Below are positions 30,433 through 54,219 of a stretch of DNA of 64,000 nucleotides, in pieces. The stretch lies in NCBI RefSeq assembly GCF_001907195.1, contig NZ_LVWA01000007.1, forward strand, positions 62,001 through 126,000. The letters are read 5' to 3'. Source of the stretch: Pontibacter flavimaris. GTDB taxonomy: Bacteria > Bacteroidota > Bacteroidia > Cytophagales > Hymenobacteraceae. Below the pieces are notes generated by a model, which saw nothing but the letters and a program-made list of their open reading frames with translations, had not been told where the DNA came from and searched no databases. A program made the translations under genes and the position numbers. The first letter of the stretch is position 1, and each line of letters starts with the position of its first letter.

Positions 30433-30459
30433 AAGTATAAATCAAGTATAAGCAAAGTA

Positions 30460-30521
30460 TGGCTTTCCAAGCCAGTCGGGTTGAAAACCCAACGAATAAA
30501 AGGACACGGGCTGCAAGCCCG
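30460..30521 (+). repeat. Three short variable-stem hairpins
   Basis: TGGCTT-TCC-AAGCCA (30460-30474), GGGTT-GAA-AACCC (30478-30490) and CGGGCT-GCA-AGCCCG (30507-30521). The last is followed by CGCCA. They parallel the series at 15056-15119 with different stem sequences. Confidence 0.8.
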
Positions 30522-30580
30522 CGCCAGCGGAAGTATGGGCGGCTATGAAAGTATAAATCAGCAAGTATAAAAAGGCAAAA

Positions 30581-30621
30581 GCGGACGCCCCGAAATACTC
30601 CGGGACTTTCAGCTTGCGCCA
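30581..30621 (+). repeat. Variable-stem hairpin interrupted by a second hairpin
   Basis: The AGCGGACGC ... CTTGCGCCAGGG arms of the hairpin seen intact at 15005-15022 are split by about 24 bases that contain their own CCCG/CGGG hairpin (30589-30604). Confidence 0.6.
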
Positions 30622-30724
30622 GGGAAGTATAAAGTATAACCCAAGTATAAGTATAACCTACACGGATAAGGGTGTCTGGAACAGCGGTGAGAGGAGCTTG
30701 TAGAGTGGTAACGACCTGCTAAAA

Positions 30725-50053: not shown

Positions 50054-50072
50054 AAGTATAAAGTATAAGTAT

Positions 50073-50108
50073 AAACCCCTTTCTGTCTGCAGGAAGGGGT
50101 TTATTTTT
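50073..50108. terminator. Bidirectional terminator after the ABC-F gene
   Basis: AAACCCCTT (50073-50081) and AAGGGGTTT (50094-50102), extended by two more pairs, form a hairpin followed by ATTTTT. It follows three tandem AAGTATAA copies and overlaps the stop of the convergent gene. Confidence 0.8.
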
Positions 50109-51264: not shown

Positions 51265-52338
51265 CTATTTGAAGAGCTCTTCTATCACCCTGGCCTTCAG
51301 CACGGTTGTATCCATCACAATCTCCAGTCGCATAGAGTCTTGCCCAAGTGGGGCCTGGGCACTGTCGGCCGGAAATGTTACATAGGTGGTATCCACGCGC
51401 GGCACCACTACCAGCGAGTCCATGGAAAAGTGAAGCAGGCGGGCCACAGTGGGGGCCAGATCGATGAGGGTATGCTTTGTCTCAACGGTACCGCGCCTGA
51501 AATCGGGGCCCAGCGCCAGCAGGTAAATTTGCTGGCAGCCAGGGCAGCTATCGCCATGTTCCATGTATCCGCCATCTATCCCATTCAGGTGCCGGCCGTG
51601 GTCCGCCGTGATAAACAGCGTGGTTTTGCCTCGGAAGGCCTCATCTTTGTTCAGAAAATCCCAAAGCTCTTTTGCGTACCGGTCGTCCCTGGCGATGCCC
51701 CTTAAATAGTTATCCCAGTTGCCGGCGTGGGCGAAACCATCGGGCTCCATAAAGTTGATGAGCATCAGGTTGGGTTTATAAGTCGTCAGGATGCGCTTAG
51801 CCTCTATCAAGGTCAGCGAGTCCATGCGGTAGCCAGTGCCGGGGCCGTTTACGCCCGCATTTACCGACGGCTGAAACGTGTTCTCCCAGTCGGGCCTGTT
51901 GGTATTGGCAAGTATGTGCAGTTTGTCTTTGCTCGATACGATCCAGGCCGCCGTTGTCGGTTTTCCGCTCTGCTTTAGGAAGTACTGGAAGATAGAGGGA
52001 TTGGCCGGAAGCTCGTCGCCATAGTTATCAATGGGCTGGTTTACGCCGGTAGTGATGGCTGTGTGGCCGGAGTTGGTATACGTATAGGCATCGTTGAGGA
52101 AATGGGGCAGAAAAACGCCTTTCGGCTTCAGGACGGTGGACATGTTGGGAATAAGGCCCGGCACGCTATCCCAGGTCTCAGACATGCGCGTACCGTCTAT
52201 CACCAATATTATGACATGCTCTGTTTTGGGTTTGTCTGAGGCAGAAGGTGACGAGGTACAGGCAGTTAGCACAACCAACAGCAGGAGCAACAACGCTCTG
52301 CCGGCGCATTTATACTTTCCTATAGCTGTTGCTGCCAT
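51265..52338 (-). CDS. Alkaline-phosphatase-superfamily lipoprotein (phosphodiesterase/sulfatase-like)
   Basis: 357 residues. The signal ends in lipobox LTAC. Metal-site pieces of the alkaline phosphatase superfamily appear in order: VIILVIDGTRMSET (Asp ligand), TNSGHTAITTG (nucleophile Thr candidate), LMLINFMEPDGFAHAG (Asp/His) and LFITADHGRHL (Asp-His). It resembles nucleotide pyrophosphatase/phosphodiesterases more than sulfatases. Substrate unknown. ATG 52338 is chosen over 52353 because the charged start sits directly before the signal. It shares orientation with the CotH-like gene 46 bases away, probably one transcript. Confidence 0.85.
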   Translation of the reverse strand: MAATAIGKYKCAGRALLLLLLVVLTACTSSPSASDKPKTEHVIILVIDGTRMSETWDSVPGLIPNMSTVLKPKGVFLPHFLNDAYTYTNSGHTAITTGVNQPIDNYGDELPANPSIFQYFLKQSGKPTTAAWIVSSKDKLHILANTNRPDWENTFQPSVNAGVNGPGTGYRMDSLTLIEAKRILTTYKPNLMLINFMEPDGFAHAGNWDNYLRGIARDDRYAKELWDFLNKDEAFRGKTTLFITADHGRHLNGIDGGYMEHGDSCPGCQQIYLLALGPDFRRGTVETKHTLIDLAPTVARLLHFSMDSLVVVPRVDTTYVTFPADSAQAPLGQDSMRLEIVMDTTVLKARVIEELFK

Positions 52339-52535
52339 ACTTCCGCCCTCCACACGTCTAATTTTGTATACGATTTGTATAAATGTTTAGATGAAGAGAA
52401 AGGGCGTGTCCACTGTCCCTGCCCCGAAACAAGTTCGGGATCCGAGACTTGTCTAAGGCGGGGAATCCGCTATTACTCATACCAAAGTATAAGTTCTATA
52501 GTCAAAGTATAAACACCCCTATTGACCTATGGTCG

Positions 52536-52562
52536 CAAGTTTCGAACTCTCGTTCTCACTTG
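52536..52562 (+). repeat. Hairpin with the 17-base conserved loop, copy 2
   Basis: CAAGT and ACTTG flank TTCGAACTCTCGTTCTC (52541-52557), identical to the loop at 29944-29960, whose stem is CTACC/GGTAG. Confidence 0.75.
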
Positions 52563-52586
52563 TCCTCAAGGGGACAGTAGTAATAG

Positions 52587-52832
52587 CAGCAGCTATCGAA
52601 CTGATACCCAGTCCTTGGGTTGAGCGCCTTGTGAGATTCCGGTGCCGAACGTGAGTGAGGCATTGCGACGTCAGGAGCAAAGGAAGGGAACACAGCGCGA
52701 TGCCAAAGGACGAGCCCTCTCGGGCTTGAGAGCACCACTACAGGAAGTGCAACAGTAGGTTTGTGGGAACTACAGGATCAGCGGAAGCTAGAAAATATAG
52801 CTTGTGTCAAATTGCAGGGAGCGGCGGCTATG
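52587..52832 (+). repeat. Element B, copy 3
   Basis: The most diverged copy: AGCTATCGAACTGATACCCAG, GGGTTGAGCGCC, CAGCGCGATGCC, CGAGCCCTCTCGGGCTTGAG, AGGATCAGCGG and ATAGCTTGTGTCAAA keep the order of copies 1 and 2, but the middle (GACGTCAGGAGCAAAGGAAGG) is rearranged. Confidence 0.75.
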
Positions 52833-53055
52833 GGAAGTATAGCCGAAGTATAAAGTATAGCTCAAGTATAGGTAAAGTATAAACGCACAAGTATAACCAA
52901 GACTCCTACTGCACCGGCAAAACCGGATCAGCGGCAAAAACCTACTCCCGCCATTTGCGTTTAACCCAAAAGTTCGCATTATTGCAACCGTAACAGAACA
53001 CATGCATCAACCAGCAGCCATAGCGACCACACTATCCCGACCAACATCCCTTGGT

Positions 53056-53145
53056 ATGGCGCTGCTGCACACTGCCTATTCTTATTGCCTGAGCGTGTAT
53101 AGCTATTACAGCTATTATTATCGCTATTACAGCACCCGCAGCTAA
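53056..53145 (+). CDS. Tyrosine-rich leader peptide of phhA
   Basis: A 29-codon ORF that ends in TAA at 53143-53145. Ten of 17 consecutive codons are Tyr (TAYSYCL then SVYSYYSYYYRYY), far beyond chance. A Met at 53002 in the same frame would give a 47-codon version. It is followed by 72 bases, a strong intrinsic terminator (53218-53252) and phenylalanine 4-hydroxylase, the enzyme that makes tyrosine. In known attenuators, ribosome stalling at codons for the end product lets the terminator melt. Here low tyrosyl-tRNA would switch on phhA. No obvious antiterminator pairing is visible by eye. Confidence 0.75.
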   Translation: MALLHTAYSYCLSVYSYYSYYYRYYSTRS

Positions 53146-53217
53146 GGCAATCACCAACAACTAGCATTTTAGACTCGGGGAGTAACGCCACAAGGCCCTC
53201 CCACCGGTGAACCTGCC

Positions 53218-53252
53218 AAAGCAGCGGCTCAAGCCCCTGCTTTTTTCTTTTT
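53218..53252 (+). terminator. Leader terminator (attenuator) before phhA
   Basis: AAAGCAG and CTGCTTT, with inner GGC/GCC and one C-C mismatch around a TCAA loop, then TTTTTTCTTTTT. It lies downstream of the leader ORF, and the nearest gene upstream is on the other strand, so it can only regulate phhA. Confidence 0.88.
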
Positions 53253-53284
53253 GTACCCAATTCAAAGCATCAAACCATAAAAAC

Positions 53285-54028
53285 ATGAACCTGACACAAA
53301 ACTACAGCACCTACACCGAAGAGAACCATACCGTTTGGGCCATACTTTTCCAGCGCCAGATCGAGAACCTGCCCGGCAAAGCCATTCCTGAGTTTTTTGA
53401 GGGACTCAAGCTGGTGAACTTCCAGCCGGAACGCATCCCCAACTTTGCGGAGGTGAACGAGCGCCTGAAGCCCCTGACCGGCTTTGAGGTGGTGGCCGCC
53501 CCCGGTATTGTGGACGACGCGCTGTTCTTCGGCCTGATCGCGGAGAAGAAATTCCCGGCCACGGTGTGGATCAGAAGGATGGATCAGCTCGAGTACCTGG
53601 AGGAGCCGGACATGTTCCATGATGTGTTTGGCCACGTGCCGCTGCTCACTATTCCGGTGTACTGCGAGTTTCTGGCCAGGTTATCGGCCCTGGCGCTGCA
53701 GCACGTAGACCGCCCCGACATCGTGGACCGACTGACGCGCATCTACTGGTACACCATCGAGTTCGGCCTGTTCCGGAAGCCCGGCGCGGAGGCACGCATT
53801 TACGGCGCCGGCATCCTTTCGTCGGTGGGCGAGAGCCGGCTGTCGGTATCGGAGCAAAGTATAAAGCATGAATTCGACGTGCAGCACATCCTCGACACAG
53901 CCTATATCAAGGAGACATTCCAGAGCCAGTACTTCTGCATCGAGAGTTTTGAGCAGCTGCTGGAAAGCCTGCCGCAGTTGGAGAAGGCTATCCTGAAGTT
54001 GCGCGAGGAGCCTGTGGAGGTAGCCTAA
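53285..54028 (+). CDS. phhA: Phenylalanine 4-monooxygenase
   Basis: 247 residues. It hydroxylates phenylalanine to tyrosine using a tetrahydropterin, oxygen and non-heme iron. The iron ligands His112, His117 and Glu159 are in DMFHDVFGHVP and WYTIEFGL. FFGLIAEKKFPATVWIRRMDQLEYLEEPD is the family core. Only the catalytic domain is present, as in other bacterial forms. ATG 53285 is preferred over an upstream start at 53207, which would overlap the attenuator. Expression is probably controlled by the tyrosine-rich leader. Confidence 0.95.
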   Translation: MNLTQNYSTYTEENHTVWAILFQRQIENLPGKAIPEFFEGLKLVNFQPERIPNFAEVNERLKPLTGFEVVAAPGIVDDALFFGLIAEKKFPATVWIRRMDQLEYLEEPDMFHDVFGHVPLLTIPVYCEFLARLSALALQHVDRPDIVDRLTRIYWYTIEFGLFRKPGAEARIYGAGILSSVGESRLSVSEQSIKHEFDVQHILDTAYIKETFQSQYFCIESFEQLLESLPQLEKAILKLREEPVEVA

Positions 54029-54219
54029 AGTATGGGATTGAGGCATTTAGGGGTCGTCTAGCCCTTCGTGTTAAATCCGAAAATGGCCACCGCTCTGCAA
54101 GAAACCAGATCTCTCCTTGCATCTGAGATGACAAAAAAAGACTTTAATCCGCTGAGCTGACTGCATCAGGATTAGGTTTACCCTTAACAAAAAAGAGTTT
54201 TAGTTTAAAGATTGACGAG

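Follow-up and report, generated by a model that had tools for sequence, protein, structure and literature searches.

A tyrosine-codon leader and probable transcription attenuator upstream of phhA in Pontibacter flavimaris

In transcription attenuators of the pheL and trpL type, the ribosome translating the leader reaches or blocks a terminator and an antiterminator that compete with each other. In the Escherichia coli examples, pheL-pheA and trpL-trp, the operon is preceded by a short leader ORF with many codons for the end product, as outlined in passages of a review (PMC11802643). Passages of the same review also give what we regard as the nearest published case to the one described here, the AroR leader of Corynebacterium glutamicum, in which a Phe-Tyr-Phe motif precedes aroF, a gene of the aromatic pathway; the motif given there contains one Tyr codon and, according to the review, the aroF operon is unaffected by the availability of tyrosine (PMC11802643). 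Attenuators have likewise been predicted upstream of a tyrosine gene, tyrA, in the Merino list, and the term 'leader peptide' does not occur in the text of that source, whose passages on the subject name no phhA attenuator (PMC1173090). In Pseudomonas the operon of phenylalanine hydroxylase is a catabolic one, and in passages of the same source the phhABC genes of Pseudomonas aeruginosa are controlled by PhhR, which is not a leader RNA but an activator of transcription at a sigma-54 promoter (PMC1173090). Judged by titles and abstract openings, full-text searches on leaders and attenuation brought up no paper on a Tyr leader for phhA, in a collection from which subscription papers are mostly absent.

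The window analysed here, a stretch of 64,000 nucleotides from Pontibacter flavimaris, contains a phhA gene preceded by a Tyr-rich leader ORF and an intrinsic terminator (Table 1). Sequence comparison and folding demonstrate the leader, its Tyr run, the terminator and an antiterminator, together with their conservation. On the strength of sequence and modelled structures we consider it very likely that these elements make up a classic ribosome-mediated transcription attenuator, which would sense tyrosine and control phhA. As in the pheL and trpL type, the locus combines a run of control codons, here for Tyr, with a terminator, a mutually exclusive antiterminator, a switch between stalling and completion in constrained folding and a gene that supplies the amino acid. 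It differs from the E. coli systems in its Tyr control codons, in its target, phhA, in its occurrence in Bacteroidota and in the form of its antiterminator, a long branched helix interrupted by internal loops.

Table 1. Features of the phhA leader region, in window coordinates
Feature	Position	Strand	Details
Promoter-like pair, Bacteroidetes type	52954..52984	+	TTTG 52954-52957, 19-nt spacer, CATTATTG 52977-52984
Leader ORF, 47 codons	53002..53145	+	10 Tyr codons (8 TAT, 2 TAC)
Possible 5' hairpin, perhaps a pause site, weakly supported	53012..53067	+	53012-53018 pairs with 53061-53067
Segment 1, candidate anti-antiterminator	53084..53093	+	able to pair with 53142-53151, withholding the antiterminator strand
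Main Tyr cluster, proposed stall site	53098..53130	+	8 Tyr in 11 codons
Segment 2, antiterminator 5' strand	53136..53155	+	contains the leader stop and GGCAATCA (53146-53153)
Segment 3, antiterminator 3' strand	53206..53227	+	overlaps the terminator 5' arm
Intrinsic terminator	53218..53251	+	stem 53218-53243, T-rich run 53241-53251; -12.6 kcal/mol by folding
phhA, phenylalanine 4-monooxygenase	53285..54028	+	PF00351 E 9.3e-41; NF008877 over cut-off

The preliminary description of this DNA had placed phhA at 53285, a leader ORF at 53056-53145 or from 53002, ten Tyr codons within 17 and a terminator at 53218-53252, with the upstream gene on the other strand. The position of phhA is confirmed. 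Its product is a biopterin-dependent aromatic amino acid hydroxylase that matches PF00351, passes the cut-off of NCBIfam NF008877 and falls below that of TIGR01267, and its closest named relatives come from Pontibacter (Hymenobacteraceae, Cytophagales). The next long ORF upstream, 51265-52353, does run on the opposite strand. The leader ORF also stands, reading from ATG 53002 to TAA 53143-53145 with the translation MHQPAAIATTLSRPTSLGMALLHTAYSYCLSVYSYYSYYYRYYSTRS; the start at 53056 does not. Because the sequence is conserved from 53002 on in 40 aligned relatives (the genus loci whose phhA is more than 70% identical), and because a promoter-like pair is found immediately before it, the leader almost certainly begins at ATG 53002. 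There are indeed ten Tyr codons, spread over 18 codons (53077-53130) and not 17. Folding confirms a terminator and shifts its bounds slightly, to those given in Table 1. A simple terminator scan of 52700-53400 reported none, although folding gives one, probably because the stem holds a mismatch. A hairpin with a T run was called between the leader ORF and phhA in all 40 relatives, with energies from -7.4 to -17.4 kcal/mol.

Across the genus, phhA was found in 42 of 50 genomes, and upstream DNA was taken for all 42. A Tyr-rich leader precedes phhA in every one of these carriers; close relatives without the leader or its Tyr run, which had been named in advance as what would speak against attenuation, were looked for and none was seen. 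We scored the leaders by a cluster rule, an ATG ORF of 8-80 codons with at least 4 Tyr in 10 codons, which was passed by 42/42 genus loci on the coding strand, by 0/42 on the reverse strand and by a mean of 0.65 of 42 in mononucleotide shuffles. Leu, Ala and Ile meet the same rule in 24, 16 and 13 of the 42 loci, respectively, and the argument therefore rests on the conservation of the Tyr columns and not on the rule alone. In the 40 relatives the leader can be aligned from the first Met through the end of the Tyr run, with the ORF open throughout. Three alignment columns hold Tyr in 40/40 and two more do so in 39/40 and 37/40. The two divergent loci of the genus, L041 and L042, have shorter leaders, MNLMNNAYYYYYYHQSRRFGVGCVCS and MKITNNAYAYYYYRRNSCFGMGCVCLM, that are still rich in Tyr.

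Outside Pontibacter the rule was passed by 16 of 59 named loci (1.0 in shuffles) and failed by 43, and among 20 further loci of the order 5 passed (0.25 in shuffles) and 15 failed; these two sets share some genomes. From other orders, classes and beyond, one locus in 20 passed, L167 (0.1 in shuffles). Among the passing named loci are those of Hymenobacter, Solirubrum, Roseivirga, Echinicola, Fulvivirga and Nafulsella, as well as some from metagenome bins that bear the labels Sphingobacteriales and Chitinophaga. Leaders outside the 40 differ greatly in sequence and mostly keep the order of Tyr run, stop and T-run hairpin. The hairpin lies 20-35 nt past the stop in 53 of 56 rows (duplicates included), and 41, 63 and 195 nt past it in the others. 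The Tyr-rich part itself varies between lineages, as in YSYYSYYYRYY, AAYYCYGYYYRC, AYYYYYYH and RYYAYAYYAP. We also observed His codons among or beside the Tyr codons in leaders of other families (L101, L102, L122, L134, L135, L141 and L185), examples being AHHYYYYY, KYYSHYYH and MNPTPRTYVHHSYHLLV. In 7 of the 59 named loci there is an ORF in which a stretch of 10 codons includes 4 or more His.

The role of PhhA can be approached through the distribution of phhA and tyrA. TyrA was counted as a PF02153 match over the cut-off, with six genomes that gave weak partial matches counted as absent, and on this basis it is present in 27 of the 50 genus genomes, 19 of which, the source genome included, have both TyrA and phhA. 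The eight genomes without phhA all have tyrA and the 23 without tyrA all have phhA, with 0/50 lacking both at the Pfam cut-off. The hypergeometric probability for all eight phhA-less genomes having tyrA is 0.004 when the genomes, which are related, are treated as independent. In the wider family at least one genome, G050, lacks both genes. Mutant fitness in Echinicola vietnamensis led to the proposal, set out in passages of that study, that tyrosine is made there along two routes, via PAH and via a prephenate or arogenate dehydrogenase (PMC7311316). This species belongs to Cytophagales, the same order as Pontibacter, and Tyr leaders are present at L102, L107 and L133, which come from three further species of Echinicola. 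In other relatives phhA lies downstream of a DAHP synthase gene (L124, L113), of trpA (L130) or of tyrA (L119). In L197 and L199 the gene before phhA has an end resembling, as we take it, 4-hydroxyphenylpyruvate dioxygenase, and a Pfam scan of L197 placed this gene in the glyoxalase/dioxygenase superfamily; neither locus has a Tyr leader by the cluster rule. From the phhA/tyrA distribution PhhA looks anabolic in these genomes, and the published passages on Echinicola genetics agree (PMC7311316), which supports the earlier assumption that PhhA is a tyrosine maker. In the source genome phhA is not the sole route to tyrosine, since tyrA is present too.

Bacteroidetes promoters have the consensus TTTG / TANNTTTG. 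Scored against this consensus, the promoter-like pair reaches a mean best score of 7.7 of 10 in the 40 relatives, as against 4.5 in mononucleotide shuffles, and a promoter probably lies just upstream of 53002. The Tyr codons of the 40 leaders are mainly TAT (281 TAT and 84 TAC, or 281/365), as against 167 TAT and 347 TAC (167/514) in the long ORFs of the window, for which 32 of 34 ORFs were left after a composition filter. The Tyr run is thus built from the less used codon, which would fit a site made for slow decoding. In the 40 relatives the leader has a pN/pS of 0.62 as a whole and of 0.44 within the Tyr region. The leader gave no family match in NCBIfam or Pfam at E ≤ 0.1, and an Rfam scan of 52300-54200 gave no match at E ≤ 1, either to a T-box or to any other Rfam riboregulator.

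No clear antiterminator had been found by eye in the preliminary description, which called for RNA folding of the leader region. Such folding yields both a terminator and an antiterminator, and with a ribosome placed on the Tyr codons the antiterminator is found in 39 of 40 relatives at the stage before the terminator 3' arm. When the RNA spanning the leader end and the terminator loop is folded, the leader end pairs with the terminator 5' arm, and consensus folding of two alignments recovered the antiterminator without guidance. Segment 2, its 5' strand, consists of the last leader codons and about 10 nt. In the window the antiterminator pairs are 53136-53139/53224-53227, 53141-53143/53220-53222, 53146-53149/53214-53217 and 53151-53155/53206-53210; these were taken from the consensus structure and placed by sequence, and three were checked in the window fold. 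The two alignments comprised 16 and 21 of the 40 relatives, and L017, L023 and L033, which have an odd layout, are in neither. In the set of 21, 97.8% of cells are paired and three pairs have changed on both sides (23 cells). The covariation score of this set was reached by 0/500 shuffles, and sliding the partner along gave at most 44.4% paired. The three double-change pairs may represent few events, because they follow one main split of the set. The set of 16, which is the window's own subgroup, has 98.8% of cells paired and shows no covariation and no double changes. The motif GGCAATCA is shared by 35 of the 40 relatives, lying after the leader stop in 15, in frame 2 in 12 and in frame 0 in 8. 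Of the remaining five, L004 retains just GGCAA, and L011, L017, L023 and L033 have neither. Retention of the same bases in different reading frames argues that the motif is kept as RNA and not as protein.

The pairing was also assessed as a duplex between the leader end and its own terminator arm. The 81 leaders used were what remained of 96 after removal of eight repeats of the same segments and seven others: L006 and L189, whose terminators are weaker than -9 kcal/mol, three duplicates that were badly cut, and L055_791 and L062_1802 (wrong ORF or wrong hairpin). Tested against leader-end shuffles, the duplex comes out better at p ≤ 0.05 in 37 of the 38 close relatives. Among the 43 leaders beyond them, a group that includes L041 and L042 of the same genus, it does so in 9. 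Compared with the arms of other lineages, the cognate arm was among the best 5% in only 18/81, so the pairing is not always specific. Segment 1 of the window can pair with segment 2 in a way that resembles the 1:2 hairpin of classic attenuators, and this helix (53084-53093 with 53142-53151) appears when the window leader is folded without a ribosome. It does better than shuffles (p ≤ 0.05) in no more than 7 of the 40 relatives, and with this partial support we do not count it as a statistically supported helix.

To follow the competition between the two structures, the 40 leaders were folded with an assumed ribosome footprint of -20 to +15 around the A site. The transient state was defined by RNA polymerase standing just before the terminator 3' arm, and an antiterminator was scored when it made 4 or more pairs with the 5' arm. 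A ribosome placed at the cluster's second Tyr gives a transient fold that contains the antiterminator in 39 leaders (L006 is the miss), as against 4 leaders (L021, L027, L034 and L036) for a ribosome at the stop; without a ribosome it appears in 35/40. Full-length folding with a ribosome at the stop yields the terminator in 38/40, the exceptions being L006 and L020. When the leader is complete and the ribosome stalled, the terminator forms in 33/40 and the antiterminator persists in 5/40. For the window the stalled state has an energy of -54.5 kcal/mol with the antiterminator, polymerase at 53228, and of -57.4 kcal/mol with the terminator, polymerase at 53245. Since the finished RNA favours the terminator in most leaders even when the ribosome is stalled, antitermination would have to be kinetic in this model.

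Two elements near the 5' end of the leader were also considered. The possible 5' hairpin exceeds codon shuffles in stability (p ≤ 0.05) in 26 of the 40 relatives, yet no double change occurs among the 38 that were aligned (L016 and L017 were left out); we have not accepted it as a conserved pause site and keep it as a weak candidate. The heptamer CGCTGCT at 53060-53066, earlier suggested as a 7-bp antiterminator partner of the terminator 5' arm, mostly belongs to this separate hairpin. We rejected it in that role, as the pairing is not in the full fold and is not needed. The region does pair with the terminator arm (53064 with 53225, 53068 with 53221) in the transient state when a ribosome occupies the stop.

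The proposed mechanism would run as follows. RNA polymerase would start just upstream of 53002 and a ribosome would translate the leader. With Tyr-tRNA plentiful, the ribosome would reach the stop codon and cover segment 2, the terminator would form, and transcription would end before phhA. With Tyr-tRNA short, it would stall in the mostly-TAT run of the main cluster, leaving segment 2 free to pair with segment 3 and so to take the terminator 5' arm, whereupon phhA would be transcribed and PhhA would convert phenylalanine to tyrosine. The model thus predicts ribosome stalling, a response to tyrosine, readthrough of the terminator, charging of Tyr-tRNA as the signal and phhA expression that follows this signal. 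That low tyrosyl-tRNA stalls the ribosome and allows phhA transcription had been the central suggestion of the preliminary description, and we grade it as supported by the Tyr leader in 42/42 carriers, the antiterminator in 39/40 relatives, the phhA/tyrA distribution and the Echinicola genetics. If it is true, phhA would be marked as biosynthetic in Pontibacter and in the other Cytophagales that carry the attenuator, and tyrosine would join the amino acids sensed by leader peptides. The leader would also provide a sequence hint separating anabolic from catabolic copies of phhA.

Could the peptide, rather than the decoding of its Tyr codons, be what matters? In nascent-peptide arrest of the TnaC kind the Tyr-rich peptide would itself stall the ribosome, with free tyrosine or another small molecule sensed in the tunnel, and the N-terminal part of the leader peptide is well conserved in the genus. 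However, arrest peptides depend on a sequence that is fixed around the stall site, and across the lineages compared no conserved peptide sequence was found there; the Tyr-rich part changes order and spacing between lineages and only the many Tyr codons are kept, so that we consider peptide arrest very improbable. A small functional Tyr-rich protein encoded by the ORF, with the terminator as a simple constitutive brake, is the least probable of the explanations considered. The pN/pS below 1 and the frame that stays open in the 40 aligned relatives are points in its favour, but the C-terminal end varies in length and frame between subgroups while GGCAATCA stays, the searches of NCBIfam and Pfam gave no family, and the partner of the terminator 5' arm sits at the end of the ORF.

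The codon bias raises a further question, namely whether the attenuator senses the decoding of TAT by tRNA-Tyr, for example through wobble queuosine, beside or instead of the supply of tyrosine. His and Tyr tRNAs are both queuosine tRNAs, and the mixing of His with Tyr codons in several leaders of other families, like the excess of TAT over its share in the long ORFs, could be read in this way. TAT may, however, merely keep the RNA unstructured or slow the ribosome, and a regulated enzyme that makes tyrosine is explained by the plain reading. We regard the sensing of TAT decoding as less probable again than peptide arrest, and prefer attenuation that responds to tyrosine through Tyr-tRNA.

A second leader of this kind was found in the same genome, where tyrA (at L200:1429) is preceded by a Tyr/Phe-rich leader, MKLNLAPYFPFYYYYFYLRKEQGHLWQ, at L200:1174-1257 (G000 contig C5); inspection by eye shows a hairpin and T run after it. 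Tyr-rich or Tyr/Phe-rich leaders occur in 6 of 23 tyrA loci (L200, L204, L205, L213, L215 and L219); these 23 were examined of 27 in the genus, and three of them are fused ORFs in which the stretch read lies inside the gene. All six genomes with a tyrA leader also carry phhA. It is possible, if rather doubtful, that a small set of Tyr-codon attenuators governs tyrosine supply in some of these Bacteroidota. The set would comprise at least those on phhA and tyrA of one genome, tuned by the choice of the disfavoured codon TAT, so that one tRNA would read two alternative routes to tyrosine and its wobble queuosine would perhaps be sensed too. Room for queuosine comes from the bias to TAT and from the His codons that accompany Tyr in some lineages, and the breadth of such a set is weakened by the eight phhA-less genus genomes, none of which shows a Tyr leader before its tyrA.

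A search for further Tyr runs in the source genome gave seven matches at three places: the leader itself, the inside of a long ORF (L201) and a TATTAC repeat (L202). The last is an ORF at L202:680-826 (G000 contig C5) with ten consecutive Tyr from TATTAC repeats, apparently intergenic, and a long inverted repeat was seen by eye after it. Genomes of g5, a genus of the family, carry an additional phhA paralogue that in several of them stands in tandem with the first; its leader is short and has no Tyr run. Among the matches listed it occurs in L055, L057, L059, L060, L062, L063, L065 and L067-L070. The paralogue leader of L069 reads, by eye, MLNQVAKKKCLSNIRPMWDGVGLLCRYGS, and several paralogue leaders contain GGAGTCGGGCT, which appears by eye able to pair with the terminator arm AGCCCGACTCC.

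One further observation concerns the window as a whole. The octamer AAGTATAA is its commonest 8-mer, with 112 copies (66 on the forward strand and 46 on the reverse) against 0.94 expected, and resembles a highly iterated oligomer. It is often followed by A; copies are found, for example, at 30433-30656, 50054-50074 and 52485-52896. Of the 112 copies, 61 lie in stop-free stretches of at least 150 codons, which cover 84% of the window, and 30 genus loci of about 3.7 kb each contain between 0 and 12 copies.
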